Assembly (NCBI GenBank): GCA_035048485.1
Contig: CM068587.1
Span: 28,910,534 to 28,974,533, forward strand
Length of the DNA stretch: 64,000 nt
Origin: Pteria penguin
Lineage: Eukaryota > Mollusca > Bivalvia > Pterioida > Pteriidae
Direction of reading: 5' to 3'
Shown here piece by piece: positions 3,653 to 63,546 of the stretch. The notes below the pieces were generated by a model. The model ran no database searches. It saw only the letters and a program-made list of their open reading frames with translations, and was not told where the DNA came from. A program made the translations under genes and the position numbers. Within the stretch, counting starts at the first letter, position 1. Each line of letters opens with the position of its first letter.

Positions 3653-4057
3653 GAAGTGAAGGACACTCTGCACAGACTAAGGAATAGAGTGAAGGATAAA
3701 TCTGTAGAGTTGAAAGATCTTTTGAAATTTGATGAAATAGAACAGCGAATCCTCAGAAAGTTGAGCAAGAGAATCGCATTGCTAGCAAAACAGTCAGATC
3801 GTATTAACAATGACATGGCAGATCTACAGAGATCACAAAGGAAGTTGTCTTCACACATGAAAACCATAGTGAAGGATCATGATTCATTTGGTCTGAAGTT
3901 AGACAAAGTAAAGAAACTAGATTCACATCTGAGAACAGTCGTAGACAAATTTAAAAAATATGATACATCAATCAAACACAGATTCCAAAAGATTCAAACT
4001 GATGCTGATAAGATGAAAGCTAAGCTGAATGCAATGACTGAGATAGGAACAGAGTTG
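3653..4057 (+). CDS. Coiled-coil exon 1 of the window (135 codons, phase 0/0)
   Basis: An acceptor 'ctatttttag' precedes GAA at 3653 and a strong donor 'ttg|gtaagt' follows 4057. The 405 nt between them are open in one frame and exactly 135 codons. The product is Lys/Leu/Asp-rich without proline or glycine runs. Leu, Ile, Val and Met recur at heptad-like spacing (for example LRKLSKRIALLAKQ and KLDKVKKLDSHL), indicating a long coiled coil. It ends in KMKAKLNAMTEIGTEL, and a similar KMKAKL phrase occurs in the exon at 9289. No signal peptide or initiator ATG is convincing here, so the gene must begin upstream, before 3653 or outside the window. I do not recognise the protein. Confidence 0.82.
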
Positions 4058-7791: not shown

Positions 7792-8034
7792 AATGTATCT
7801 GAGGCACGGTTTACCAAAAATCAACTGAAGATAGTCCATGCTATTGGCAAGGTTGCTGGTCGATCACGACACTTAGGCTCTCGCTTGAGTACTCTTGGTA
7901 AGAGTCTAGAGAAAATAACACAAGACCTAAAGGGAAGCAAGTTAGCTAGTAGGCAGATTAAGGATAATGTGAAGAAAATTGCACATAGAGTAACAGCTCT
8001 GAGGAAAAAACTGGAAAAACAAACTAAACCAAAT
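7792..8034 (+). CDS. Coiled-coil exon 2 (81 codons, phase 0/0)
   Basis: An acceptor 'gatttttacag' ends at 7791 and a donor 'aat|gtaagt' begins at 8035. The 243 nt are open in the frame that follows the previous exon. The product is a basic amphipathic helix with phrases such as SRLSTLGKSLEKITQDLKG and IAHRVTALRKKLEKQ. Hydrophobic positions are spaced like a coiled coil. It has the same length as the next exon (81 codons), which suggests duplication of a coiled-coil exon unit, although the sequences have drifted too far for me to align by eye. The family is unknown. Confidence 0.82.
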
Positions 8035-9288: not shown

Positions 9289-9531
9289 ATCAAAAGGAGT
9301 AGACATTGGCAAAGGGAGATAAATAAACTCCAGTCTCTTGTCTCCTTATTGCTGAATACTAACAAAAAAAGGAAGAATGACCTGAAAGGGAATCGGAAAG
9401 ACATGGCTGAAGTCATGAAGGAAGTCACACGAATTCAACTTGCTGGTCAAAAAATGAAGGCTAAACTTCAGAATATCCAACAGACATCAAATCAGTTACA
9501 AAAAATGGTCAAAGTTCTCCAAACTGAAAAG
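9289..9531 (+). CDS. Coiled-coil exon 3 (81 codons, phase 0/0)
   Basis: An acceptor 'tttcttttgtag' ends at 9288 and a donor 'gaaaag|gtaact' begins at 9532. The exon is 243 nt, open and in phase with its neighbours. The product is Lys/Gln/Asn-rich with a continuous helix signature, including INKLQSLVSLLLNT, MAEVMKEVTRIQLAGQ and KMKAKLQNIQQ. The KMKAKL phrase is shared with the end of the exon at 3653, which supports an origin by internal duplication. I recognise no catalytic or binding motif. Confidence 0.82.
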
Positions 9532-11776: not shown

Positions 11777-12025
11777 CAATCTTCCCCAGGCATTGTCAAG
11801 TTGGCCAGAATTGAGGGAAAACTCCTGCAGGCTTTGTCATTAGTAAAAGGCAAGGAAAAAATGCTAACGGATCAGGTGACCCAGTTTCATAAAAATATCA
11901 GGAAGATGAAAGATGACATAGCTAATGGTAAAACTAAACATGACAACACTGTTAGAGAAATAAAGAAAGTAGCACAGTTTATGAAGAGTTTGGAATCCCA
12001 GATTGGAAAAATAAAGGGTCAATTG
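11777..12025 (+). CDS. Coiled-coil exon 4 (83 codons, phase 0/0)
   Basis: The donor 'ttg|gtaagt' at 12026 is strong. The acceptor is less certain. 'ctctttcttgaag' ending at 11776 gives a phase-0 exon of 83 codons that keeps the reading frame of the neighbours. The stronger-looking 'cttccccag' ending at 11789 would break phase. 'attgtcaag' ending at 11800 also keeps phase and gives a 75-codon exon. The product includes LARIEGKLLQALSLVKGKEK and IKKVAQFMKSLESQIGKIK, again a Lys-rich coiled coil. The protein is not recognised. Confidence 0.75.
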
Positions 12026-15119: not shown

Positions 15120-15311
15120 GTGAAAATTAAAACATATCAGCCTTTATCCAAATCTGATCTACAGAAACTTGAGATAGACCAGAGAGCCCTGAAGAGTAAG
15201 TTACAGAGTCTCAGAAAGGATGCAGATACTTTATCTAAACATTTGACTGCTCAGTCCAAGTTGACAATAGACCACAGAGTGAAATCAGTCGTATGGAATG
15301 CTGTGCACAGG
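15120..15311 (+). CDS. Coiled-coil exon 5 (64 codons, phase 0/0)
   Basis: An acceptor 'ggtcatgttttacag' ends at 15119 and a donor 'cacagg|gtgagt' begins at 15312. The exon is 192 nt and open in phase 0. The product includes LQKLEIDQRALKSKLQSLRK and DADTLSKHLTAQSKL with heptad-spaced Leu. It then shifts to RVKSVVWNAVHR, which holds the only Trp in this part apart from one at 9307-9309. This is the fifth consecutive 0/0 exon, so any of them could be skipped without loss of frame. The family is unknown. Confidence 0.82.
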
Positions 15312-17072: not shown

Positions 17073-17204
17073 GTTGCATCAGTAATGGAGAAAAAATCCA
17101 ATCACTTAATGAACCTAGTGTTTAAAGTAAAAGAGGAAAATAGGAGCTTATACTACAAGTTAGCAAATGTACAGGCAAAACTGAAGATAGCAGTAAAAAG
17201 ACTA
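17073..17204 (+). CDS. Coiled-coil exon 6 (44 codons, phase 0/0)
   Basis: An acceptor 'cttttctttttag' ends at 17072 and a donor 'cta|gtaagt' begins at 17205. The exon is 132 nt and open in phase 0. The product has the phrases MEKKSNHLMNLVFKVKEEN and VQAKLKIAVKRL. It is helical and Lys-rich and ends the coiled-coil block. Together the six exons give 488 codons. A candidate adapter exon follows 103 bp downstream. Confidence 0.8.
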
Positions 17205-20900: not shown

Positions 20901-21626
20901 TGTATATTCCTTTTATTTAGGTCAGCAATACATAAATATATATCTGTTTATCACATGTTTTGCTGTTTATGCAGTGAAATATCACTATTTCATAGATTGA
21001 TTTATTGCATAGGTGACGTCATAGCGTGAAAAAGAATTGTGTCAAGCCGGGGTTTGATGACATAAACACATTCGAATTGAGTGTAAACATGTAATAAAAA
21101 GAATCTGAAATGAATTTTTATTTCATACAGTATTAATAAAACTCGTGTGTTTACAACTTGTTTCATAATTTCATTTCAGATCCTACATTACTCATTTGTA
21201 AATCCTGATCACACATCAGTGACATATATGTTTTTATTTCAAATCATTATCAATACCCCTCTTTGAAATTCTGGTTTTCTTTTTTATTAAGAACAGAATG
21301 CATAGTTTACAGAGAAAGCAGAATAGGAAATTAAGAAAAATTGTTCCACTGAAAAAAAGTAAGTTTCCATTTTTATATTCATTAATACAATGAAATGAGT
21401 TGGAGCCACAAGTTATAACGCTCAATATTGAATTTCATCCGCTTAAAAAAAAAAAAACACATGTAAAGTAATTTTAGATTGATGTGTATTTCAGAAATGA
21501 TGTTACATGTGTTTATGACACTTTCAAGAAAATTTCACTCATTTTGTGATACCAATACCAGTTCCTTGTTAAGTTTTGACCTGATGCTTTGTCTATTAAC
21601 TTTGTGTTTTCTCCCACTGGAGAACA

Positions 21627-27299: not shown

Positions 27300-28291
27300 A
27301 GTCCCCTACCGGCATGGCCGAAGGGGACTATAGGTTTGCACTACGTCTGTCTATCTGTCAGTCCGTCGGTCCGTCAGTCACACACGTTTTCCGGACTTTT
27401 TTCCTAAACGATGTAGATATTCATCCAATTTTTGGTGTATGAGTCTACCACTATGAGGTACAGATCAAGTTCGAGTTCCGTTTCGGTCCACTGATTTTTG
27501 ACGGAATTACAGCCCTTGGAATTAGAAAATTTCTTTAAAATGGCAGTTTTCCGGACTTTTTTTCTAAACGCCTGTAGATATTCATCTAATTTTTGGTGTG
27601 TGAGTCTACTACCATGAGTTACAGGTCAAGTTTGAGTTTCGTTTCGGTCCATTGATTTTTAACGGAATTACGGCCCTTGGAATTAGAAAATTTCTTTAAA
27701 ATGGCAGTTTTCCGGACTTTTTTTCTAACGCCTGTAGATATTCATCCAATTTTTGGTGTGTGAGTCTACCACCATGAGTTACAGATCAAGTTCGAGTTCC
27801 GTTTCGGTCCACTGATTTTAGACGGAATTACGGTCCTTGGAATTAGAAAATTTCTTAAAAATGGCAGTTTTCCAGACTTTTTCTAAACGCTTGTAGATAT
27901 TCATCCAATTTTTGGTGTGTGAGTCTACCACCATGAGTTACAGATCAAGTTCGAGTTCCGTTTCCGTCCACTGATTTTTGACGGAATTATGGCCCTTGGA
28001 ATTAGAAAATTTCTTTAAAATGGCAGTTTTCTGGACTTTTTTCTAAACACCTGTAGATATTTATCCAATTTTTGGTGTGTGAGTATACCACCATGAGGTG
28101 CAAATCAATTTTGAGTTTCGTTACGGTCCACTGATTTTTGTGGAATTACGGCCCTTGGAATAAGAAAATTTCTTTAAAAGTTGTGATCAAATACTTAACT
28201 TGCTGGCAGCCTGAAAGACAGTATGTTGTGTGTGTATGTGTGTGTGTGTGTGTTTTGGGGGTCTTAGTTTTCCATTTGCCGGTAGGGGACT
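27300..28291. mobile_element. Pearl-like element: terminal inverted repeats and five core units of about 160 bp
   Basis: 'agtcccctaccggca' at 27300 and 'tgccggtaggggact' ending at 28291 are exact inverted repeats. Just inside the left end 'gtcccct..aggggac' also forms a short hairpin, followed by a TCTGTC tract. Five tandem units then start with 'ttttccggacttttt' near 27389, 27549, 27710, 27870 and 28029. Bivalve pearl elements (described from oysters) have this layout of short flanks and tandem cores of about 160 bp. They have been linked to Helitron-like replication, but that is inference here. Confidence 0.8.
28218..28257. repeat. Short (GT)n microsatellite
   Basis: An imperfect GT run lies near the right end of the pearl-like element. 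Confidence 0.85.
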
Positions 28292-28479: not shown

Positions 28480-28857
28480 TTATCAGACAAAGTAGGTGGC
28501 AGAGAAGATATGGTAGTACAAAGCCGAGAAGAAGAATAAGTAAGAAATTAAGTAAGAAGAGAGGTAGGAGACCTAGAGGGAGAAGGGGCAGAAGGCCTAC
28601 CAGGAGAGGCAGGAAACTGAGAAGAAAGAGAGGTAGAAGACTGAGGAGGAAGAGAGGCAGGAGACTGAGGAGGAGAAGAGGCAAAAGATTAAGGAGGAGG
28701 AGAGGCAGAAGACTGAAAAAGAAGAGGAGGAGAGGCAGAAGACTGAAGAGGAGGAGAGGCAGGAGACTTAAGAGGAGGAGAAGTAGAAAACTGAGAGGTA
28801 GAAGATTGAGGAGAAGGAGAGGCAGAAGACTTAAGAGGAGGAAAGTCAGAAAACAAG
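28480..28857 (+). CDS. Arg/Lys-Gly-rich exon R1 (126 codons, phase 1/1)
   Basis: An acceptor 'ttaatataatag' ends at 28479 and a donor 'caag|gtaggt' begins at 28858. Read in phase 1 the exon has no stop and starts (x)TT ATC AGA CAA .. TGG CAG AGA AGA TAT GGT. This parallels the start of the large exon at 44957 (TT CAC AGA CGA .. TGG CAG AGA AGA TAT GGT). The rest is an eight-residue repeat of the type RGRRLRRR, with Arg encoded by AGA/AGG only. The product is extremely basic and disordered and would bind polyanions. I cannot name it. An alternative acceptor ('gttatcag' ending at 28486) changes the phase and is less consistent with the donor phases. Confidence 0.75.
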
Positions 28858-31930: not shown

Positions 31931-34012
31931 GGGTTTCAATATCTTTGTCTTCGTTTTTGAGAAATTTATAATTTTAGGGGGTGGGGTGGGGTGACCATAT
32001 GTCCTAGGTCATGTTTTCCGGACTTTTTTTGCCGTCTTTCAAGATATTGAGTTGAAATTTGGTATATAGCTTTATTTCAAGCTGCGTCAGTACCAGTTTG
32101 AGTTTTGTTACGATTAATCACTTTTGACGGATTTATGGCCCTTGGACTTTTAAATTTCAAGATTTTTTCAGAAATTCATTAAAAATCTATTTTTTGTCAA
32201 AACATTATGTAATTTATCATGAAACAAGTAAAATGTACCAACTATCACATATATTACAAGTTTTAATATCTTTTTACCTCATTTTTGAGAAATTTATAAT
32301 TTTAGGAGGGGGGGGTTGACCATCTGTCCAAGGTCATGTTTTCCGGACTTTTATTGCCATCTTTCAAGATATTGAATTGAAATTTGGTATATTGCTTTAT
32401 ATCAAGCGGCGTCAGTACCAGTTCAAGTTTTGTTACGATTGATCACTTTTGACCAGTGTGTGAAACTGGGATTATTGATGGGATAGCCCCATTAAAGTTG
32501 GGATAGCCCAGATGTCATCTGTTAGGTATGATTGAACAAACAACATTACAAAATTCAAATATATTAAATTTAAATTAAATGTCGCAATGCTTTAGCAGCC
32601 TCAGATTGTGCAACGTTTTTCAAGTTCAATTTTGCCTTAGAGGCATCTGCATGCATAGATGAAGTTTCATGCTTTTTAATGGAATCTAGCCTAAAATTCG
32701 AACATCCAGTAAGCCAAACTTGGTTACCAGGATGTAAATCGCCCGATCGTTTATCCCAAAACTCTATACATATAGAGTTCGCCCATGTGATGTCACCCTA
32801 CTAGCATTAGTGGCCATGTTGGAGTACAACTTTCGGACTTTTTCCATGTAAACTGTATTAAATTTCTGAGAAATTAAACTATTTATCAGGGTAGATTTTG
32901 TGACTTCAGTCTTACTTAATCAGTAAATATAATCAATCAGTTGAAAATTTTCTGTAAAACATTTAGATATATACAGTGTGATAATTTCATAAAATTAAGT
33001 TAAATCCAGCAGTTTTATATGAGCATTGATGGATAAAGTCCAAGAGTTGTACTCCAATGAGGGAGATAACTCTAGCTAATTTGAGGAAAACAGGGTTGTA
33101 TGGGAACACTCTATAGTATAAGACATTTTTCTATTTTCAAATTTTAGCCAGTCACGTCCGATTTTACAATGCGATTTGAATTCACGCACTCTAACCTTTT
33201 TTCATACTTTTTTATTTTTTCTTCTTCCGTAGTCGTTTTACGTTTCGGTTTCATAGAGGGCCTTGCTCCATCAAAATATTTCAAAGGTAAAATTACCGCT
33301 ACTTGATACGATGTAAATTGTGCAATGTTATTCATACGCTTACCTTTATACTTGACACCGCACGCTTTGAAAAAACATTTGAGTGATACAGAACTCTGTC
33401 TCATTCAAGCGTTTTCGCGAAATATGCTGCGTCAAGTACAAAGACAAGCCTATGAAAGACATGGCATTGAAAAACGGGATAGCCCAGTAGGACGCGGTCA
33501 ATTTAATCTGGGATAGCCCGACGAGTTTTGGGGTAGTCACGGGCGCCGGACTACCGCTAATTTCACACACTGCTTTTGACGGATTTATGGCCCTTGGACT
33601 TACAAATTTCAAGATTTTGTTTTGAAAATCTATTAAAAATCTAATTTTTGTAAAAACATTATGAAATTTATCATGAAACAAGTAAAATGTACCAACTTTC
33701 ACATATTTTATTGATTTCTTTTTTACTTCATTATTGAGAAATTTATAATTTTAGGAGAGGGGGGAGTGTAGGGGGGGGGGGGGGGGCTTGTACTAAAAAA
33801 TTCCAAGTTTTTTACAGGTCAAGTTCCAAGATGGGTTGGATAGGACCATTTCTGCCCTTGGACTTATTCCTATGATAAAATGCTATGAAACACAATTAAC
33901 TTTAGTAAACGTCAGATGTTTTTCATGAAAATCATGCCAAATGCGAATTGAACCTGTCCGAATTAAGCGACGGGCAATTTATGCCACCCTAGGCGTTGCT
34001 CTTGTTTAGTTC
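31931..34012. mobile_element. Pearl-like element interrupted by a hAT insertion
   Basis: Units opening with 'ggtcatgttttccggactttt' (about 32010 and 32333) contain 'caagatattgaattgaaat' and 'cagtaccagttcaag' phrases. The tail ends at 34012 with 'agcgacgggcaatttatgcc' and 'ggcgttgctcttgttt'. It matches the element at 37133-38302. The head is truncated against the preceding repeat. A G16 run lies at 33771-33786. The insertion at 32454-33572 splits one unit. Confidence 0.7.
32454..33572. mobile_element. Non-autonomous hAT element, 1119 bp, 8-bp target duplication
   Basis: The termini 'cagtgtgtgaaa' and 'tttcacacactg' are a perfect 12-bp inverted repeat. 'cttttgac' is duplicated exactly on both sides (32446-32453 and 33573-33580). 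Uninterrupted copies of the host repeat (near 32124) read 'cacttttgacggattt' and so show the empty site. Subterminal 'gggatagccc' motifs occur twice near each end. An 86-codon minus-strand frame (33404-33144) with a Lys-rich PKRKTTTEEEKIKKYEKR phrase may be a transposase remnant. The 8-bp duplication is diagnostic of the hAT superfamily. Confidence 0.92.
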
Positions 34013-34480: not shown

Positions 34481-36150
34481 AGCAGTTGAAGCACAACTGT
34501 ATTGCCCATTAAGTGTAAGTTAAACTGGTAGAAGTTGAAACCGAACGGTATTGCCCATTACGTGTAAGTTAGGCTGGTAGCAGTTGAGGCAGAACTGTAT
34601 TGCCCATTAAGTGTAAGTTAGGCTGGTAACAGTTGAGGCAGAACTGTATTGCCCATTAAGTGTAAGTTAGGCTGGTAACAGTTGAGGCAGAACTGTATTG
34701 CCCATTAAGTGTAAGTTAGGCTGGTAGCAGTTGAGGCAGAACGGTATTGCCCATTAAGTGTAAGTTAGGCTGGTAACAGTTGAGGCAGAACTGTATTGCC
34801 CATTAAGTGTAAGTTAGGCTGGTAACAGTTGAAGCAGAACTGTATTGCCCATTACGTGTAAGTTAGGCTGGTAGCAGTTGAGGCAGAACGGTATTGCCCA
34901 TTAAGTTTAAGTTAGGCTGGTAACAGTTGAGGCAGAACTGTATTGCCCATCAAGTGTAAGTTAGGCTGGTAACAGTTGAGGCAGAACTGTATTGCCCATT
35001 AAGTGTAAGTTAGGCTGGTAACAGTTGAGGCAGAACTGTATTGCCCATTAAGTGTAAGTTAGGCTGGTAACAGTTGAGGCAGAACTGTATTGCTCATTTA
35101 GTGTAAGGTAGGCTGGTAACGATTGAAGCAGAACGGTATTGCCCATTACGTGTAAGTTAGGCTGGTAACAGTTGAGGCAGAACGGTATTGCCCATTAAGT
35201 GTAAGTTAGGCTGGTAACTGTTGAGGCAGAACTGTATTGCCCATTAAGTGTAAGTTAGGCTGGTAACAGTTGAGGCAGAACTGTATTGCCCATTAAGTGT
35301 AAGTTAGGCTGGTAACAGTTGAGGCAGAACTGTATTGCTCATTTAGTGTAAGTTAGGCTGGTAACGATTGAAGCAGAACGGTATTGCCCATTACGTGTAA
35401 GTTAGGCTGGTAACAGTTGAGGCAGAACGGTATTGCCCATTAAGTGTAAGTTAGGCTGGTAACTGTTGAGGCAGAACTGTATTGCTCATTAAGTGTAAGT
35501 TAGGCTGGTAACAGTTGAGGCAGAACTGTATTGCCCATTAAGTGTAAGTTAGGCTGGTAACAGTTGAAGCAGAACGGTATTGCCCATTAAGTGTAAGTTA
35601 GGCTGGTAGCAGTTGAGGCAGAACGGTATTGCCCATTAAGTGTAAGTTAGGCTGGTAACAGTTGAGGCAGAACTGTATTGCCCATTAAGTGTAAGTTAGG
35701 CTGGTAACAGTTGAGGCAGAACTGTATTGCCCATTAAGTGTAAGTTAGGCTGGTAACAGTTGAAGCAGAACGGTATTGCCCATTAAGTGTAAGTTAGGCT
35801 GGTAACAGTTGAAGCAGAACGGTATTGCCCATTAAGTGTAAGTTAGGCTGGTAACAGTTGAGGCAGAACTGTATTGCCCATTAAGTGTAAGTTAGGCTGG
35901 TAACAGTTGAGGCAGAACTGTATTGCCCATTAAGTGTAAGTTAGGCTGGTAGCAGTTGAGGCAGAACGGTATTGCCCATTAAGTGTAAGTTAGGCTGGTA
36001 ACAGTTGAGGCAGAACTGTATTGCCCATTAAGTGTAAGTTAGGCTGGTAGCAGTTAAAGCAGAACTGTATTGCCCATCAAGTGTAAGTTAGGCTGGTAAC
36101 AGTTAAAGCAGAACTGTATTGCCCATTAAGTGTAAGTTAGGCTGGTAGCA
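34481..36150. repeat. 49-bp satellite array, about 34 units
   Basis: The unit contains 'gtaagttaggctggtaacag' and 'gaactgtattgcccattaag' and repeats every 49 bp with little variation. Variant units (a 'tgctcattta' unit followed by a 'gattgaagcagaacgg' unit) recur 245 bp apart at 35091 and 35336. This shows a local five-unit higher-order repeat. No open frame spans the array. Confidence 0.97.
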
Positions 36151-39374: not shown

Positions 39375-41650
39375 AGTAATTATGCCCTGGCCATGAAATG
39401 GCCAAGGGCATACAGTGCTACCCTGTTCTGTCATTCCGTCATTCCATCATTCTGTCATTCCGTCATCATTCAGTTTTCGCTCATTTTCTCAATAAAGGCT
39501 TGATGGATTAAATTGATATTGGGTATACAGATGTATCAAGGGAAGATGCAGGTCAAGTGTGGATATGGGTGTGGTCTGATATCTTTGACAGAGTTATTGC
39601 CCTTGAACATAGAAAATTTCTTAAAAATGACAGTTTCCACTCATTTTCTCTTTGAAGGTTTGGTGGATTAAATTGATACTGTGTATATAGATGTATCAAG
39701 GGAAAATGCGGCTCAAATTTGAATAGGGTATATAGATGTATCAAGGGAAAATGCAAGTCAAGTTTGAATTGGGTATATAGATGTATCAAGGGAAAATGCA
39801 GGTCAAGTTTGATTTGGGTATATAGATGTATCAAGGGAAAATGCAGGTCAAGTTTGAATTGGGTATGTAGATATATCAAGCGAAAATGCAGGTTAAGTTG
39901 GAATATGGGTGTGGTCCAGAAATTTTTGACAGAGTTATTGCCCTTGAACATAGAAAATTTCTGAAAAATGACACTTTCCACTCATTTTCTCAGCGAAGGT
40001 TTGATGGATAAAATTGATATTGGGTATATAGATGTATCAAGGGGAAATGCGGCTCAAATTTGAATAGGGTATATAGATGTATCAAGGGAAAATGCAAGTC
40101 AAGTTTGAATTGGGTATATAGATGTATCAAGGGAAAATGCAGGTCAAGTTTGATTTGGGTATATAGATGTATCAAGGGAAAATGCAGGTCAAGTTTGAAT
40201 TGGGTATGTAGATATATCAAGGGAAAATTCAGGTCAAGTTTGAATATGGGTAAGGCCCAGTAATTTCTGACAGAATTATTGCCTTTGAACACGGAAAATT
40301 TCTGAAAAATGACAGTTTCCACTCATTTTTTCAGTGAAGGTTCGATGGATTAAATTGATATTGGATATATAGATGTATCAAAGGAAAATGCAGGTCAAGT
40401 TTGAATATGGGTAAGGCCCAGTAATTTCTGACAGAATTATTGCCTTTGAACACGGAAAATTTCTGAAAAATGACAGTTTCCACTCATTTTCTCAGTGAAG
40501 GTTCGATGGATTAAATTGATATTGGATATATAGATGTATCAAGGGAAAATGCAGGTCAAATTTGAATATGGGTATGTTCCAGTAATTTCTGACAGAATTA
40601 TTGCCCTTTAACATTGAAAATTTCTGAAAAATGACAGTTTCCAATCATTTTCTCTTTGGTTTGATGGATTAAATTGATACTGTGTATAAAAATTTATCAA
40701 GGAAAAATGGAGGTCAAGTTTGAATATGGGTGTGGTCCAGTAATTTCTGACAGAATTATTGCCCTTGAACATGGAAAATTTCTGAAAAATGACAGTTTCC
40801 ACTCATTTTCTCTTTGAAGGTTTGATGGATTAAATTGATATTGGGTATATAGATGTATGAAGGGAAAATGCAGGTCAAGTTTGAATTGAGTATATAGATG
40901 TATCAAGGGAAAATGCAAGTTAAGTTTGAATATGGGTGTGGTCCGGTAATTTCTGACAGAATTATTTCCCTTGAACATGGAAAATTTCCGAAAAATGAGT
41001 TTCCACTCATTTTCTCAGTGAAGGTTTGATGGATTAAATTGATATTGGGTATATAGATGTATGAAGGGAAAATGTAGGTCAAGTATGATTGTTGGTATGT
41101 TCCGGTAATTTCTGACAGAATTATTGCCCTTGAACATGGAAAATTTTTTGAAAAATGATACTTTCCACTCATAGGTTTGATGGATTAAATTGACATTGGG
41201 TATATAGATGTATCAAGGGAAAATGCAGGTCAAGTTTGAATTGGGTATATAGATGTATCAAGAAAAAATGCAGGTCAGACTTTAAATATGGATGTGGTCT
41301 GGTAATTTCTGACAGAATTATTGCCCTTGAACATGGAAAATTTCTGAAAAATGACAGTTTCCACTCATTTTCTCAGTGAAGTTTTGATGTATTTAATTGA
41401 TACTGGGTATATAGATGTATCAAGGGAAAATGCAGGTCAAGTATGAATATGGGTGTGTTCCGGTAATTTCTGACAGAATTATTGCCCTTGAAATGGAAAA
41501 TTTCTGAAAAATTACACTTTCCACTCATTTTCTCAGTGAAGTTTTGATGATAATGGGTATATAGATGTGTCAAGGGAAAATGCAGGTCAAGTATGAATAT
41601 GAGTTTGTTCTGGTAATTTCTATCAGAGTAATTGCCCTTGAACATTAGAA
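39375..41650. repeat. Nested tandem array: about 165-bp units containing expanded 46-bp subunits
   Basis: A palindromic head 'gccctggccatgaaatggcc' plus 'aagggc' and 'tgtcattccgtcattcc' tracts open the array. The large unit has 'ttgatggattaaattgata', 'atagatgtatcaaggg', 'caggtcaagtttgaat', 'attgcccttgaacatgg' and 'tttccactcattttctc'. In two units the inner 'gggtatatagatgtatcaag' segment is itself repeated four to five times (39726-39890 and 40066-40225). The layout fits a pearl-like element with core expansion. The open frames here are chance results of the repeat. Confidence 0.85.
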
Positions 41651-44850: not shown

Positions 44851-44956
44851 CTTGTTGTTTCTCTCATATACATATGCATTCATGGAGCAAACATGACAAC
44901 ATGTTTTTATTAAACATTACATCAATGTTTTTTTTTTTTCAAATTTAATATTATAG

Positions 44957-47900
44957 TTCACAGACGAAAAAAGTGGCAGAGAAGATATGGTATTAGAAGT
45001 AGGAAAAGAAGAAAATCTAAAAAACTTGGTAGAAAGAGGGGCAGAAGACTTCAGAGAAGGAGAGATAGATTAAGGAGAAGAGGTAAAAGATTCAGGAGGA
45101 GGAGACTTAGAAAATTGAGAAGAAGGAAGAGTAGAAAACTGAGGAGAAGGAGAGGCAGAAGAGTAAATAGGAAGAGAGGTAGGAGAAGGAAAAGAGGAAG
45201 AAGACTAATTAAAGGGAGGAAAAGAAGGCCTAGAAGAAGAAGAGGCAGAAGACAGAGGATAAGAGGCAGAAGAGAAAAGAAGAGGAGAGGCAGAAGACTG
45301 AGGAAGAGAGGCAGGATACTTAGGAAGAGGAGAGGTAGAAGACTGAGGAGGAGGCGAGGCAGGAGATTAAGGAAAACAAGAAGAGGAAGACCAAGGGGGA
45401 GGAGAGGCAGAAGACCGAGTAGAAGGAGATTAAGGAAAAGAAGAGGAAGAAAATGGGGGAGGAGAGTCAAAAGACTTAAGGGAAGGAAAGGCAGGAGAGC
45501 TCGAAGAATTAGGAGGAAGAGAGGAAGAAGATTGAGAAGGAGAGGCAGAAGATTAGGGAGGAGGAGAGGTAGAAGACTGAAGAGGAGGAGAGGCAGAAGA
45601 TTAAGAAAAACAAGAGGCAGAAGACCAAAGAGCAGGAGAGGCAGAAGACAAAGAGGTAGAATAAGTAAGTACAAAAAGAGAAGACCCAGGAGAAGGAGAG
45701 GTAGAAGACCAAGTATAAGGACATTTAGGAAAAGAAGAGGCAGAAAATGGAGGAGGAGAGTCAAAAGACTTAAGAAGAGGAGAGGCAGGAAACTGAGAAG
45801 GAGGAGAGGTAGAAGACTGAGAAGGAAAAGAGGAAGAAGATTGAGAAGGAGAGGCAGAAGATTAGGGAGGAGGAGAGTTAGAAGACTGAAGAGGAGGAGA
45901 GGCAGAAGATTAAGAAAAACAAGAGGCAGAAGACCAAAGAGCAGGAGAGGCAGAAGACAAAGAGGAAGAGGTAGAAGAGTAAGTAAGTACAAAAAAAGAA
46001 GACCCAGGAGAAGGAGAGGTAGAAGACCAAGTAGAAGGACATTTAGGAAAAGAAGAGGCAGAAAAAGGAGGAGGAGAATCAGAAGACTTAAGAAGAGGAG
46101 AGGCAGGAGACTGAGAAGGAGGAGAGGTAGAAGACTGAGAAAGAAAAGAGGAAGAAGATTGAGAAGGAGAGGCAGAAGATTAGGGAGGAGGAGAGGTAGA
46201 AGACTGAAGAGGAGGAGAGGCAGAAGATTAAGAAAAACAAGAGGCAGAAGACCAAAGAGCAGGAGAGGCAGAAGACAAAGAGGAAGAGGTAGAAGAGTAA
46301 GTAAGTACAAAAAAAGAAGACCCAGGAGAAGGAGAGGTAGAAGACCAAGTAGAAGGACATTTAGGAAAAGAAGAGGCAGAAAATGGAGGAGGAGAGTCAA
46401 AAGACTTAAGAAGAGGAGAGGCAGGAGACTAAGAAGGACTAGAGGTAGAAGACTGAGAAGGAAGAGAGGAAGAAGATTGAGAAGGAGAGGCAGAAGAGTA
46501 AGTAAGCACAGAAAAAGAAGACCCAGGAGAAGGAGAGGTAAAAGACCAAGTAGAAGAAGATTTAGGAAAAGAAGAGAAAGAAAATTTAGGAAGAGAGTCA
46601 GAAGACTTAAGAGGAGGAGAGGCAGGAGACTGAGAAGGAAGAGAGGAAGAAGATTGAGAAGGAGAGGCAGAAGATTAGGGAGAAGGAGAGGTAGAAGAGT
46701 GAAGAGGAGGAGAGGTAGAAGATTAAAGAAAACAAGAGGCAGAAGACTAAGGAGGAGGAAAGGCAGAAGACAAAGAGGAAAAGGTAGAAGAGTAAGTAAG
46801 TACAAAAAAAGAAGACCCAGGAGAAGGAGAGGTAGAAGACCAAGTAGAAGGAGATTTAGGAAAAGAAGAGGCAGAAAATGGAGGAGGAGAGTCAAAAGAC
46901 TCAAGAAGAGGAGAGGCAGGAGACTGAGAAGGAGGAGAGGTAGAAGACTGAGAAGGAAGAGAGGAAGAAGATTAAGGAAAACAAGAGGCAGAAAACCAAG
47001 GAGGAGAGACAGGAGACTGAGAAGGTGGAGAGGTAGAAGACTGAGGAGGAGGAGAGGCAGAAGATTAAGGAAAACAAGAGGCAGAAGGCCAGGGAGGAGG
47101 AGAGGCATAAGACCAGGAGGAAGAGGTAGAAAAGTTAGTAAGCACAGAAAAAGAAGACCCAGCAGAATACAAAGAAAATTGAGGAGCAGGAGACCAAGGA
47201 GGAGGAGAATCAGAAGACCTAGTAGGAGGAGAGGAAGAACTAGGAGAAGGGGAAGAATACCAAGAAAATGGAGAGGTAGAAGACCTAATAGACGGAGAGG
47301 CAGACCAAGGAGAAAGTGGAGAGGCAGAAGACCATGGAGAGGGAAAGGCAAAAGATTTAAAAGGAGGGAAAGGAGACTGAGGATGATGAGAAGAATCAGA
47401 GGACTAAGGAGAAGAGGAAGAAGACTGAGTAGTAAGAGAAGTAGAAGAACCAATAGAGGGAAAGGCAGACCAAGGAGAAGGAGGAAAGGAAGAAGACTTA
47501 TAAGAAAGAGAGGTAGAAGACCTAGTTGGAAAGGCAAAGGATCCAGAAAATGGAGGGGCAAAAGATCATGGAAAAGGAAAAATAGAAAACCTAGTAGGAG
47601 AGGAAGAAGACCTAGTAGGAGGAGGAGGAGACCAAGGAGAGGTAGAAGACCCAGTAGAAGGAGAGGAAGAAGACCTAAAAGGAGGGGCAGAGTACAAAGA
47701 AAATGGCGAGGTAGAAGACCTAATAGAGGGAGAGGCAGACCAAAGAGAAGGTGGAGAGGCAGAAGACCATGGAGAGGGAAAGGCAAAAGATTTAAAAGGA
47801 GGGAAAGGAGACTGAGGATGATGATAAGAATCAGAGGACTAAGGAGAAGAGGAAGAAGACTGAGTAGTAAGAGAGGTAGAAGAACCAATAGAGGGAAAGG

Positions 47901-48634
47901 CAGACGAAGGAGGAAAGGAAGAAGACTTATAAGAAAGAGAGGTAGAAGACCATGGAGAGGGAAAGGCAAAAGATTTAAAAGGAGGGAAAGGAGACTGAGG
48001 ATGATGAGAAGAATCAGAGGACTAAGGAGAAGAGGAAGAAGACTGAGTAGTAAGAGAGGTAGAAGAACCAATAGAGGGAAAGGCAGACCAAGGAGAAGGA
48101 GGAGAGGAGGAAGACTTATAAGAAAGAGAGGTAGAAGACCTAGTTGGAAAGGCAAAGGATCCAGAAAATGGAGGGGCAAAAGACCATGGAAAAGGAAAAA
48201 TAGAAAACCTAGTAGGAGAGGAAGAAGACCTAGTAGGAGGAGGAGGAGACCAAGGAGAGGTAGAAGACCCAGTAGAAGGAGAGGAAGAAGACCTAAAAGG
48301 AGGGGCAGAGTACCAAAAAAATGGAGAGGTAGAAGACCTAATAGAGGGAGGGGCAGACCAAGGAGAAGGTGGAGAGGCAGAAGACCATGGAGAAGGAAAG
48401 GCAAAAGATTTAAAAGGAGGGAAAGGAGACTGAGGATGATGAGGAGAATCAGAAGATTAAGGAGTAGACTGAGTAGTAGGAGAAGCAGAGGACCAAGAGG
48501 AAGAAGCAGAAGACTTAGTAAAAGGCAAAAAAAAAGATCTAGTAGAAGAGGCAGTAAACCAAGAAATTGGAGGGCCAGAAGACCAAAGAGAAGTAGGAGG
48601 AGATTTAGAAGACAACGAATTAGAAATCAATCAA
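44957..48634 (+). CDS. Giant Arg/Lys-Gly-rich exon R2 (1226 codons, phase 1/1)
   Basis: A T-run and 'taatattatag' acceptor end at 44956, and a donor 'caa|gtaaga' begins at 48635. The phase-1 frame is open for 3678 nt, although TGA, TAG and TAA are dense in the other two plus frames. Composition is dominated by Arg (AGA/AGG almost only), Lys and Gly. The basic unit is eight residues, RGRRLRRR with variants. Longer units of about 105 residues recur, starting with YKKRRPRRRRGRRPS near 45664, 45986, 46306 and 46798. A different family with KGKRFKRRERRLRMM recurs near 47344, 47770, 47956 and 48385. Phase agrees with the exons at 28480 and 55012. The product would be extremely basic and disordered. 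I cannot tell a nucleic-acid-binding role from an extracellular matrix role. A different acceptor, 'ttcacag' ending at 44963, shifts the entry phase. Confidence 0.82.
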
Positions 48635-48659
48635 GTAAGAAGAAAAACCAAGTGTGAAA

Positions 48660-55011: not shown

Positions 55012-55269
55012 GTAGTAAAAGAAGAGTAAGAAGATCAGTTAATTTGCAGCCAGATGTGAGGAGAATGCAAAGGTCATTAGGAAGGCAACCAAATGGGTTG
55101 ATGATCAAAAGATCAGTAAGACAGCAGCCAGAGCAAGGAGTTATAAGTTCATTAAAAGGCCAGCCCAGGAAGAAGAGAGTCAAAAGGTCAAACAGAAGCC
55201 AGCCACTGAAGAGGAGTGTAAATAGTCAAGGCAGTCTGCAACCACAAAGGAGAATTAAAAGACAAACAA
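55012..55269 (+). CDS. Basic Gln/Pro/Ser exon with repeated dibasic motifs (86 codons, phase 1/1)
   Basis: An acceptor 'gaataattctag' ends at 55011 and a donor 'acaa|gtaagt' begins at 55270. The exon is 258 nt and open in phase 1, joining to the large exon as A|GT (Ser). It is built of about six loose repeats of 12-14 residues, each with a basic pair and then Ser (RRVRRSVN, IKRSVRQQP, VKRSNRSQP, LKRSVNSQG), with QP following. RVRRS fits the known R-X-K/R-R furin consensus, so proteolytic processing is possible if the protein is secreted; that is inference. No family is recognised. Confidence 0.78.
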
Positions 55270-56544: not shown

Positions 56545-56619
56545 TTAAGAGAAGATTAAGAAATGAGAAAACCAGATTTAAACGTTTTGGAGGAGGATAT
56601 AGAAGGCCATATGCTGAAT
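56545..56619 (+). CDS. Leader exon of the tandem-cassette region (25 codons, phase 1/1)
   Basis: An acceptor 'aattttttctgtag' ends at 56544 and a donor 'gaat|gtaagt' begins at 56620. The phase-1 reading is KRRLRNEKTRFKRFGGGYRR then PYAE. The sequence still carries the Arg/Lys bias of the upstream exons and introduces the Gly-Tyr style of the downstream ones. It joins the next exon as T|CT (Ser). Confidence 0.68.
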
Positions 56620-58764: not shown

Positions 58765-58830
58765 CTGAAGAAAAATTCAGAAATAACAATGCTGGAGGGT
58801 ATTATGGTAGCAGAATATACAAAGCTCAAC
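58765..58830 (+). CDS. Cassette exon A1 (22 codons, phase 1/1)
   Basis: An acceptor 'caaattttcag' and a donor 'caac|gtaaga' bound 66 nt. The phase-1 product is EEKFRNNNAGGYYGSRIYKA then Q. It joins the leader exon as T|CT and exon B1 as C|CT. It is the first of four A copies, which share the NAGG-YYGSRIYK core, first intron bases and length. Tyr/Gly-rich basic short motifs suggest a structural repeat protein, but no family is recognised. Confidence 0.8.
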
Positions 58831-59676: not shown

Positions 59677-59718
59677 CTGGACGAAGAATAACTATCAAAA
59701 GTGCCAGAAGAGATTTCA
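59677..59718 (+). CDS. Cassette exon B1, shortened (14 codons, phase 1/1)
   Basis: An acceptor 'gatatttttcag' and a donor 'ttca|gtaagt' bound 42 nt. The product GRRITIKSARRDF aligns with B2-B4 over their first half only. In B2-B4 the exon continues for 11-13 codons to a donor at T|GTAAG or T|GTAGG. Here the aligned position reads 'cagaagtatg' in place of B2's 'tgtaagtatg', so the old donor GT is gone. The new upstream donor keeps phase 1. Confidence 0.76.
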
Positions 59719-59881: not shown

Positions 59882-59947
59882 CTGGACCACAATTAAGAAG
59901 AAACAATGCTGGAAGATATTATGGTAGCAGGATATATAAAGCTCAAC
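59882..59947 (+). CDS. Cassette exon A2 (22 codons, phase 1/1)
   Basis: An acceptor 'acctatttttcag' and a donor 'caac|gtaagt' bound 66 nt. The product is GPQLRRNNAGRYYGSRIYKA then Q. It is the same length as A1 and A4 and differs mainly in the first six residues. The intron that follows is 958 bp and free of recognised repeats. Confidence 0.8.
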
Positions 59948-60905: not shown

Positions 60906-60983
60906 CTGGGCAAGTAACTACAATAAAAGATGCCAGAAGACAGTTTAGAAAAAAATATGGAACTAGCACTCCTGTTATCCAAT
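60906..60983 (+). CDS. Cassette exon B2 (26 codons, phase 1/1)
   Basis: An acceptor 'atatcatttttcag' and a donor 'caat|gtaagt' bound 78 nt. The phase-1 product begins GQVTTIKDARRQFRKKYGTS and ends TPVIQ. This is the full-length form against which the shortened B1 is judged. The first 30 intron bases also resemble those beyond the lost B1 donor. Confidence 0.8.
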
Positions 60984-61094: not shown

Positions 61095-61157
61095 CTCAAC
61101 AAAAGTCAACAAACAGCAATGCTGGAGGACGTTATGGTAGCAGGATATATAAACCTC
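61095..61157 (+). CDS. Cassette exon A3 with destroyed donor
   Basis: An acceptor 'tacacatttttcag' is intact. The product QQKSTNSNAGGRYGSRIYKP then Q matches the other A copies. At the exon end the others read C|GTAAG; this one reads T|ATAAG, so the GT donor is absent. Read-through would add YKILYFFI and stop at 61182-61184. Either the exon is skipped (frame preserved because B2 and B3 are both phase 1) or it acts as an alternative terminal exon. No AATAAA lies close downstream. It is 21 codons, one shorter than its relatives. Confidence 0.65.
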
Positions 61158-61327
61158 AATATAAGATTTTATATTTCTTCATCTAAAAAAACTGATAAAG
61201 GAAGATTATTAGATGAATTTATATTATTGTTATCATTGATTGCTTTAGTTTGCTATTTGTTTTGGATTTATGTTTTAATTTTTTTTTTTCTCTTTTAATG
61301 TAAAATACGAAAGAAACTTGTGCATTT

Positions 61328-61865: not shown

Positions 61866-61946
61866 CTGGGCGAAAATCGACAATAAAAAATGTTATACGA
61901 AATATTAAAAGGAAATATGGCAGTAATAGTGCTCCTTTTGTTAAAT
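61866..61946 (+). CDS. Cassette exon B3 (27 codons, phase 1/1)
   Basis: An acceptor 'aaatatttttcag' and a donor 'aaat|gtaagt' bound 81 nt. The product begins GRKSTIKNVIRNIKRKYGSN and ends SAPFVK. It is the most diverged B copy, with the AR..F motif changed to VIRNI, but it keeps TIK, KYG and the phase. Confidence 0.76.
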
Positions 61947-63190: not shown

Positions 63191-63256
63191 CTGAACAACA
63201 ATCATCAATGAGGAATACTGGAGGATATTACGGTAGTAGAATATATAAAGCTCAAC
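63191..63256 (+). CDS. Cassette exon A4 (22 codons, phase 1/1)
   Basis: An acceptor 'cctttttccag' and a donor 'caac|gtaagt' bound 66 nt. The product is EQQSSMRNTGGYYGSRIYKA then Q. The core is identical to A1 in YYGSRIYKAQ. The acceptor side and length are conserved, and the following intron is only 215 bp. Confidence 0.8.
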
Positions 63257-63471: not shown

Positions 63472-63546
63472 CTGGGAAAGTAACTACAATCAAAAATGCA
63501 AGAAGAAATTTTAGAAAGAATTATGGCACAAGTACACCTGTCAAAT
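63472..63546 (+). CDS. Cassette exon B4 (25 codons, phase 1/1)
   Basis: An acceptor 'caatacttttcag' and a donor 'aaat|gtaggt' bound 75 nt. The product begins GKVTTIKNARRNFRKNYGTS and ends TPVK. It leaves phase 1 open, so further exons are expected beyond the window. No stop or polyA site was seen after it. Confidence 0.78.

Follow-up and report, generated by a model that had tools for sequence, protein, structure and literature searches.

A giant in-frame polybasic exon in a predicted secreted PAN and coiled-coil gene of the bivalve Pteria penguin

Extracellular proteins of the PAN/apple type (PF00024) are brought into comparison with the gene described here by an exon that scores above the PAN_1 curated cutoff, and we know of no PAN protein carrying a polybasic array of the size of the exon that lies downstream of it. 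Among secreted mollusc proteins, basic blocks of low complexity are otherwise familiar from the KRMPs, the shematrins and Lys/Arg shell proteins; KRMPs and shematrins are small secreted proteins with Lys-rich and Gly/Tyr-rich parts. A study of the Tridacna shell describes basic low-complexity regions in four proteins (PMC8217771). Byssal proteins of the quagga mussel, set beside the present gene by description, likewise have basic or Gly/Tyr-rich low-complexity blocks, e.g. Dbfp13 with its basic N-terminus, and theoretical masses for the new ones in that study range from 4.3 to 21.6 kDa (PMC6474901). The gene considered here differs from the shell-matrix proteins in placing an Arg-dominated block of 1,226 aa downstream of a PAN domain and a coiled coil; its giant exon is 52% Arg vs 11.6% Lys and the predicted protein is 2,379 aa long, features that set it apart from KRMPs and shematrins. 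Protamines and protamine-like proteins share the Arg-rich, repetitive character, but the gene model here adds the coiled coil and the PAN domain.

The exon lies in a window of 64,000 nucleotides of Pteria penguin (assembly GCA_035048485.1, contig CM068587.1, forward-strand positions 28,910,534 to 28,974,533); positions below count from its first letter, negative values lying upstream. A sequence-only reading had described a splice-bounded, 3.68-kb open plus-strand frame of 1226 codons with dense stops in the other two plus frames, and a product dominated by Arg/Lys-Gly that repeats at about 8 and about 105 or more residues, all of which proves correct. The exon is 3,678 nt long and runs from phase 1 to phase 1 (1,226 codons with the split codon counted), with 0 stops in its own frame, 73 and 119 in the two remaining plus frames and 58, 22 and 3 in the minus frames. 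The acceptor reads ...ttaatattatag/TTC (junction 44956/44957) and the donor CAA/gtaagaag (junction 48634/48635). The open frame itself is wider than the exon (44914-48657), and if the last donor were unused the exon could extend to a TGA at 48655. The encoded stretch is 52.0% R, 11.7% G, 11.6% K and 5.3% L with a net charge of +772; all 1,197 of its 30-residue windows have a charge of +14 to +24, and self-matching over lags of 1-329 residues is strongest at 106 and 8. RGG occurs once and RGRP four times over the 1,226 aa, which does not place the product among AT-hook or RGG proteins, and a Pfam profile search of the exon gave no family at E<=1, AT-hook included.

At 83% purine, such a stretch might be a noncoding or intronic polypurine minisatellite that owes its openness to composition, perhaps a pseudoexon or an exon that is skipped. 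The antisense strand also has an open frame of 1,191 aa across the exon, as might be expected of a minisatellite; this openness tells little because of the codon make-up, random changes yielding a stop in 0.4% of cases in the antisense frame vs 3.3% in the sense frame. Long polypurine sequence is also present elsewhere in the same genome, in an array (C7) of ~26 kb within 54255001-54325000. However, this array, although 88-95% purine, maintains no single frame: in seven 3,678-bp windows its longest open frame is 173-344 codons, vs 1,225 in the giant exon. The C7 array is apparently noncoding; the C7 matches had been considered as a paralogous gene, a candidate that was dropped, the region being a polypurine array.

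Insertions and deletions within the giant exon also respect the reading frame. In its high-identity internal alignments the copy offsets are divisible by three in 27 of 27 cases and the gaps are multiples of three in 19 of 19. Between near-identical copies every one of 17 gap placements, with single events sometimes counted in several copies, is a multiple of three, vs 7 of the 74 gaps in the controls, three tandem arrays of the window at 27386-28179, 34483-36147 and 39513-41598 with units of ~160, 49 and 45-358 bp, one of them gapless. Tandem-repeat periods of at least 6 bp are multiples of three in 38 of 38 cases in the two polybasic exons of the window vs 6 of 19 elsewhere in it. Looser, low-identity self-alignments give 273 of 416 gaps as multiples of three, the non-triplet gaps there being read as misalignment. 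Because the purine-richer C7 array opens over so much shorter distances and the gaps between near-identical copies are all triplet, the giant exon is not a stray polypurine repeat; the matching of splice phases across the exon chain and a paralogous in-frame exon at 28480 count further against a minisatellite, which we regard as improbable. A real coding exon whose frame has been kept is thus supported by the indel test, the repeat periods (these two being related to each other), the polypurine control, the paralogous exon and the in-phase exon chain, and the sense strand is assigned from the splice sites, the paralogue and the neighbouring exons.

The sequence-only reading had taken maintained openness in a fast-changing repeat as a sign of selection on the protein. 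This stands as far as the keeping of the frame is concerned and is not upheld at the level of residues; the claim is only partly supported because constraint on non-overlapping sites is not significant, the nonsynonymous/synonymous ratio being 0.82 of neutral expectation (p=0.23, 29 of 84 synonymous), a result that is compatible with a minisatellite as well. At the same sites stops number 0 of 84, a borderline avoidance (p=0.085). Over all pairs, which overlap, synonymous changes in the sense frame make up 41.5% vs 29.2% expected (ratio 0.61) and stop-making changes 0.4% vs 3.3% expected, the latter being 1.2-1.3 times expectation in the other two plus frames; in a looser set of overlapping pairs, changes from basic to neutral residues amount to 14.1% vs 21.8% expected and those from non-basic to acidic residues to 1.5% vs 3.4%. 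The ratio is nearly equal on both strands (0.61 sense, 0.62 antisense) and cannot separate them, because the third positions of both frames coincide. These patterns are read as selection that would keep the frame open and basic rather than preserve an exact sequence.

The small and the giant polybasic exons are, to judge from their alignment, paralogues. Their heads align, as do 100 bp of intron 5' of each; these intron flanks have a global score of 29, whereas the flanks of 16 other exons score no better than -14; of 2,978 random window stretches one reached 29, possibly the flank itself. The giant exon arose by in-frame growth from a 24-bp unit, with its longer blocks duplicated later. Derivation of the heads of the polybasic exons from module B of the gene's tail (below) was considered and is unsupported (shuffle p of 0.014-0.126 in six comparisons, with better windows elsewhere in the exon).

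How much of the giant exon would be joined to the message is a separate matter. Phase-1 internal donors occur after 45178, 45664, 45982, 46300 and other positions, the in-frame one at 45178 scoring 5.0 bits vs 3.7 bits for the final donor, and they would suit an exon that is coding but mostly shortened into a ladder of arm lengths, its full 1,226 codons being rarely joined. Yet the frame is kept in internal copies out to ~48464, which would be unexpected were the 3' part intronic, and predominantly shortened forms are accordingly thought unlikely.

Together with flanking genome sequence, examined for further exons over 40 kb on each side of the window, 24 predicted exons, chosen partly by open frame and phase, join in phase into 2,379 aa with 0 stops and a net charge of +1,020 (Table 1). 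Within the 64-kb window 17 exons give 2,117 aa without a stop, and an eighteenth, of 42 nt, fits the chain. The giant exon probably belongs to a large animal gene with 24 or more predicted exons that would occupy ~74 kb of the plus strand, starting at -9003 and reaching 65310 or beyond; the scan of the flanking sequence yielded no terminal exon. When the polybasic exons were masked, the exon scorer, whose codon model was trained on 13 of the exons, returned 13 non-overlapping plus-strand candidates of at least 12 bits vs one minus-strand candidate, and six random sequences gave 0-2 each.

Table 1. Predicted exons of the gene, all on the plus strand, in window coordinates (negative positions are upstream of the window).
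Feature	Position	Strand	Phase, length, charge	Basis or score
Predicted first exon, weakly signal-like	-9003 to -8958	+		in-phase chain
PAN exon	-8871 to -8636	+		PAN_1 match, in-phase chain
His-rich exon	-5149 to -4909	+		in-phase chain
Upstream exon	-2769 to -2696	+		in-phase chain
Coiled-coil exon 1 in window	3653-4057	+	0/0, 135 aa	leave-one-out codon score 30.9
Coiled-coil exon	7792-8034	+	0/0, 81 aa	splice, heptad, codon score
Coiled-coil exon	9289-9531	+	0/0, 81 aa	splice, heptad, codon score
Coiled-coil exon	11777-12025	+	0/0, 83 aa	splice, heptad, codon score
Coiled-coil exon	15120-15311	+	0/0, 64 aa	heptad p=0.069
Coiled-coil exon	17073-17204	+	0/0, 44 aa	codon score 8.8, outside training set
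Transition exon, basic	21292-21358	+	phase 0 to 1, 22 aa	codon score 11.1, outside training set
Small polybasic exon	28480-28857	+	1/1, 126 aa, net +83	paralogue of giant exon
Giant polybasic exon	44957-48634	+	1/1, 1226 aa, net +772	open frame, splice consensus, repeats
Basic repeat exon, RSV..QP units	55012-55269	+	1/1, 86 aa	
Short basic Gly/Tyr exon	56545-56619	+	1/1, 25 aa	
Module A exon ...GGYYGSRIYKAQ	58765-58830	+	1/1, 22 aa	
Shortened module B exon	59677-59718	+	1/1, 14 aa	
Module A exon	59882-59947	+		
Module B exon ...TTIKDARRQFRKKYGTST	60906-60983	+	1/1	
Module B exon	61866-61946	+		leave-one-out codon score 0.1
Module A exon	63191-63256	+		
Module B exon	63472-63546	+		
Downstream chain exons	64832-64897 and 65230-65310	+		in-phase chain

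The predicted protein comprises, in order, a signal-like start, the PAN domain, a His-rich linker, a basic coiled coil, the two polybasic exons and Arg/Tyr/Gly modules. The first exon (MLALNSLLCFRHSHT), which came from a relaxed scan and was missed by a stricter one, begins with the weakly hydrophobic MLALNSLLCF. The PAN exon, located beyond the window and linked to it by prediction, matches PAN_1 (PF00024) at 34.8 bits vs a cutoff of 21.4; it contains four of the five Cys residues in the 2,379 aa, the fifth being in the first exon. Heptad periodicity peaks at 102-104 degrees in five of the six coil exons, and the sixth is the one with p=0.069; over the coil exons as a whole the a/d contrast has z = 11.6, and for the first of them in the window the heptad band was matched by 0 of 1000 shuffles. 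AF2 run on the single sequence of this 135-aa exon gave helices at 2-76 and 83-134 in the best of five models (mean pLDDT 88, vs 71-79 for the other four; pTM 0.36). The modelled region is most likely a basic, alpha-helical coiled coil of ~510-535 residues that would oligomerise the protein. The tail is built of two modules, A (..GGYYGSRIYKAQ) and B (..TTIKNARRNFRKNYGTST), each in its own phase-1 exon; over 58765-65310 the two kinds occur in alternation, with five B exons, four A exons and one decayed A copy, and the exon pair appears to have been duplicated in tandem. The remaining module A copy, at 61095-61160, has ATAAG after it where GTAAG would stand and so has no GT donor, and is probably a decayed exon.

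The PAN domain, the long coiled coil and the class 1-1 exons suggest an extracellular location; proteins assembled from class 1-1 modules are described as extracellular for the most part, titin being one of the intracellular exceptions (PMC8001218). The reading that we prefer, with a probability of roughly 0.6, is a large animal gene for a secreted oligomer with PAN and coiled-coil parts whose polybasic arms would bind polyanions. The coiled coil would bundle the arms; these, presumably disordered and working through charge, would in the bundled state attach to polyanions and cross-link them, and acidic matrix proteins, sulphated glycans, mineral surfaces and nucleic acids are possible partners. 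The sequence itself shows the open frame, the splice phases, the history of the repeats, the frame-preserving indels, the heptad periodicity and the PAN match; full-length transcription from a single gene, secretion, oligomerisation and the polyanion-binding role are what we infer from the predicted parts. More tentatively, the protein might stand for a new class of extracellular structural proteins, PAN coiled-coil oligomers with a giant polycation that cross-links acidic matrix, mucus or mineral electrostatically and whose arms would be adjusted in length through in-frame growth of the repeats and perhaps through the internal splice donors.

The same Arg content of 52% and the in-frame repeat expansion resemble protamines, so that a sperm nuclear basic protein, very long, protamine-like and DNA-condensing, has to be weighed. 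Flounder sperm contains long repeated basic nuclear proteins comparable to such a product, and nothing on these was among the literature matches listed. Bivalve sperm chromatin is described as consisting largely of basic protamine-like proteins (PMC5550673). Against a sperm protein, the gene model adds the PAN domain, the long coiled coil and the phase-1 modules, the giant exon contains no SP[RK] motif, and no linker-histone (H1) domain is among the Pfam matches listed for ten pieces of the window (for one piece, the best 25 of 39), an absence with which protamine types lacking that domain remain compatible. Because of the PAN domain and the phase-1 modules the secreted polyanion-binding oligomer is favoured, and a sperm protein is held to be quite unlikely; given the upstream PAN domain, matrix proteomics looks the better lead and sperm proteomics the poorer.

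The surroundings of the gene contain several other features. On the plus strand at about -30249 to -28837 (L009/L010) there is a protein rich in Gly and Tyr (MLRFVCTLLFVAACQAGGDYYDKKSGGG...), with the look of a secreted one and with EPRRKK close to its end, which we take to resemble the shematrins; its gene lies ~20 kb 5' of the first exon of the model, and NCBIfam gave 0 matches for most of the protein. Also on the plus strand and upstream of the modelled gene, exons at L011:2425-3200 seem to form the last part of a different gene, possibly ZNHIT3. Two minus-strand matches within the window are possibly remnants of mobile elements: a zf-C17orf113 match at 32570-32797 (29.6 bits vs a cutoff of 29.5), which may be a transposon-derived fragment, and a weak CENP-B_N helix-turn-helix match at 535-747 (19.7 bits, below the cutoff of 21.2), which may be a transposase remnant.

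Protein searches at E<=0.001 with the giant exon and with the coil, the latter both by itself and as part of the joined protein, each against the 7,932-7,996 candidates sharing most words, gave no match in collections that possibly contain no animal proteins. One coil exon had no relative among viral and prokaryote contigs, a PDB sequence search returned weak matches (E of 0.014 or worse), three proteins had no NCBIfam match, the window had no Rfam match at gathering scores, and nine peptide strings from the gene were unmatched in the literature. Since the collections searched may lack animal proteins, missing homologues mean little, and for the same reason no new category is claimed; our call is to place the protein among secreted coiled-coil proteins with basic low-complexity blocks.

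Polybasic codon runs are sometimes reported to stall ribosomes. If translated, the giant exon would, as far as we know, encode one of the longest and most highly charged polybasic stretches of any natural protein. A yeast study describes a charge of +12 per 30 residues as a great rarity across most proteomes, puts the two longest yeast stretches dense in Lys/Arg at 42 and 44 residues, and concludes that in yeast ribosome quality control does not generally target polybasic sequences of this kind (PMC8102910). The present gene would thus be a strong test of ribosome quality control on polybasic sequence, whichever the outcome. Translation of the exon would also show that a long exon can grow by in-frame repeat expansion, and would point to a possible route by which animals build polyelectrolyte matrices.
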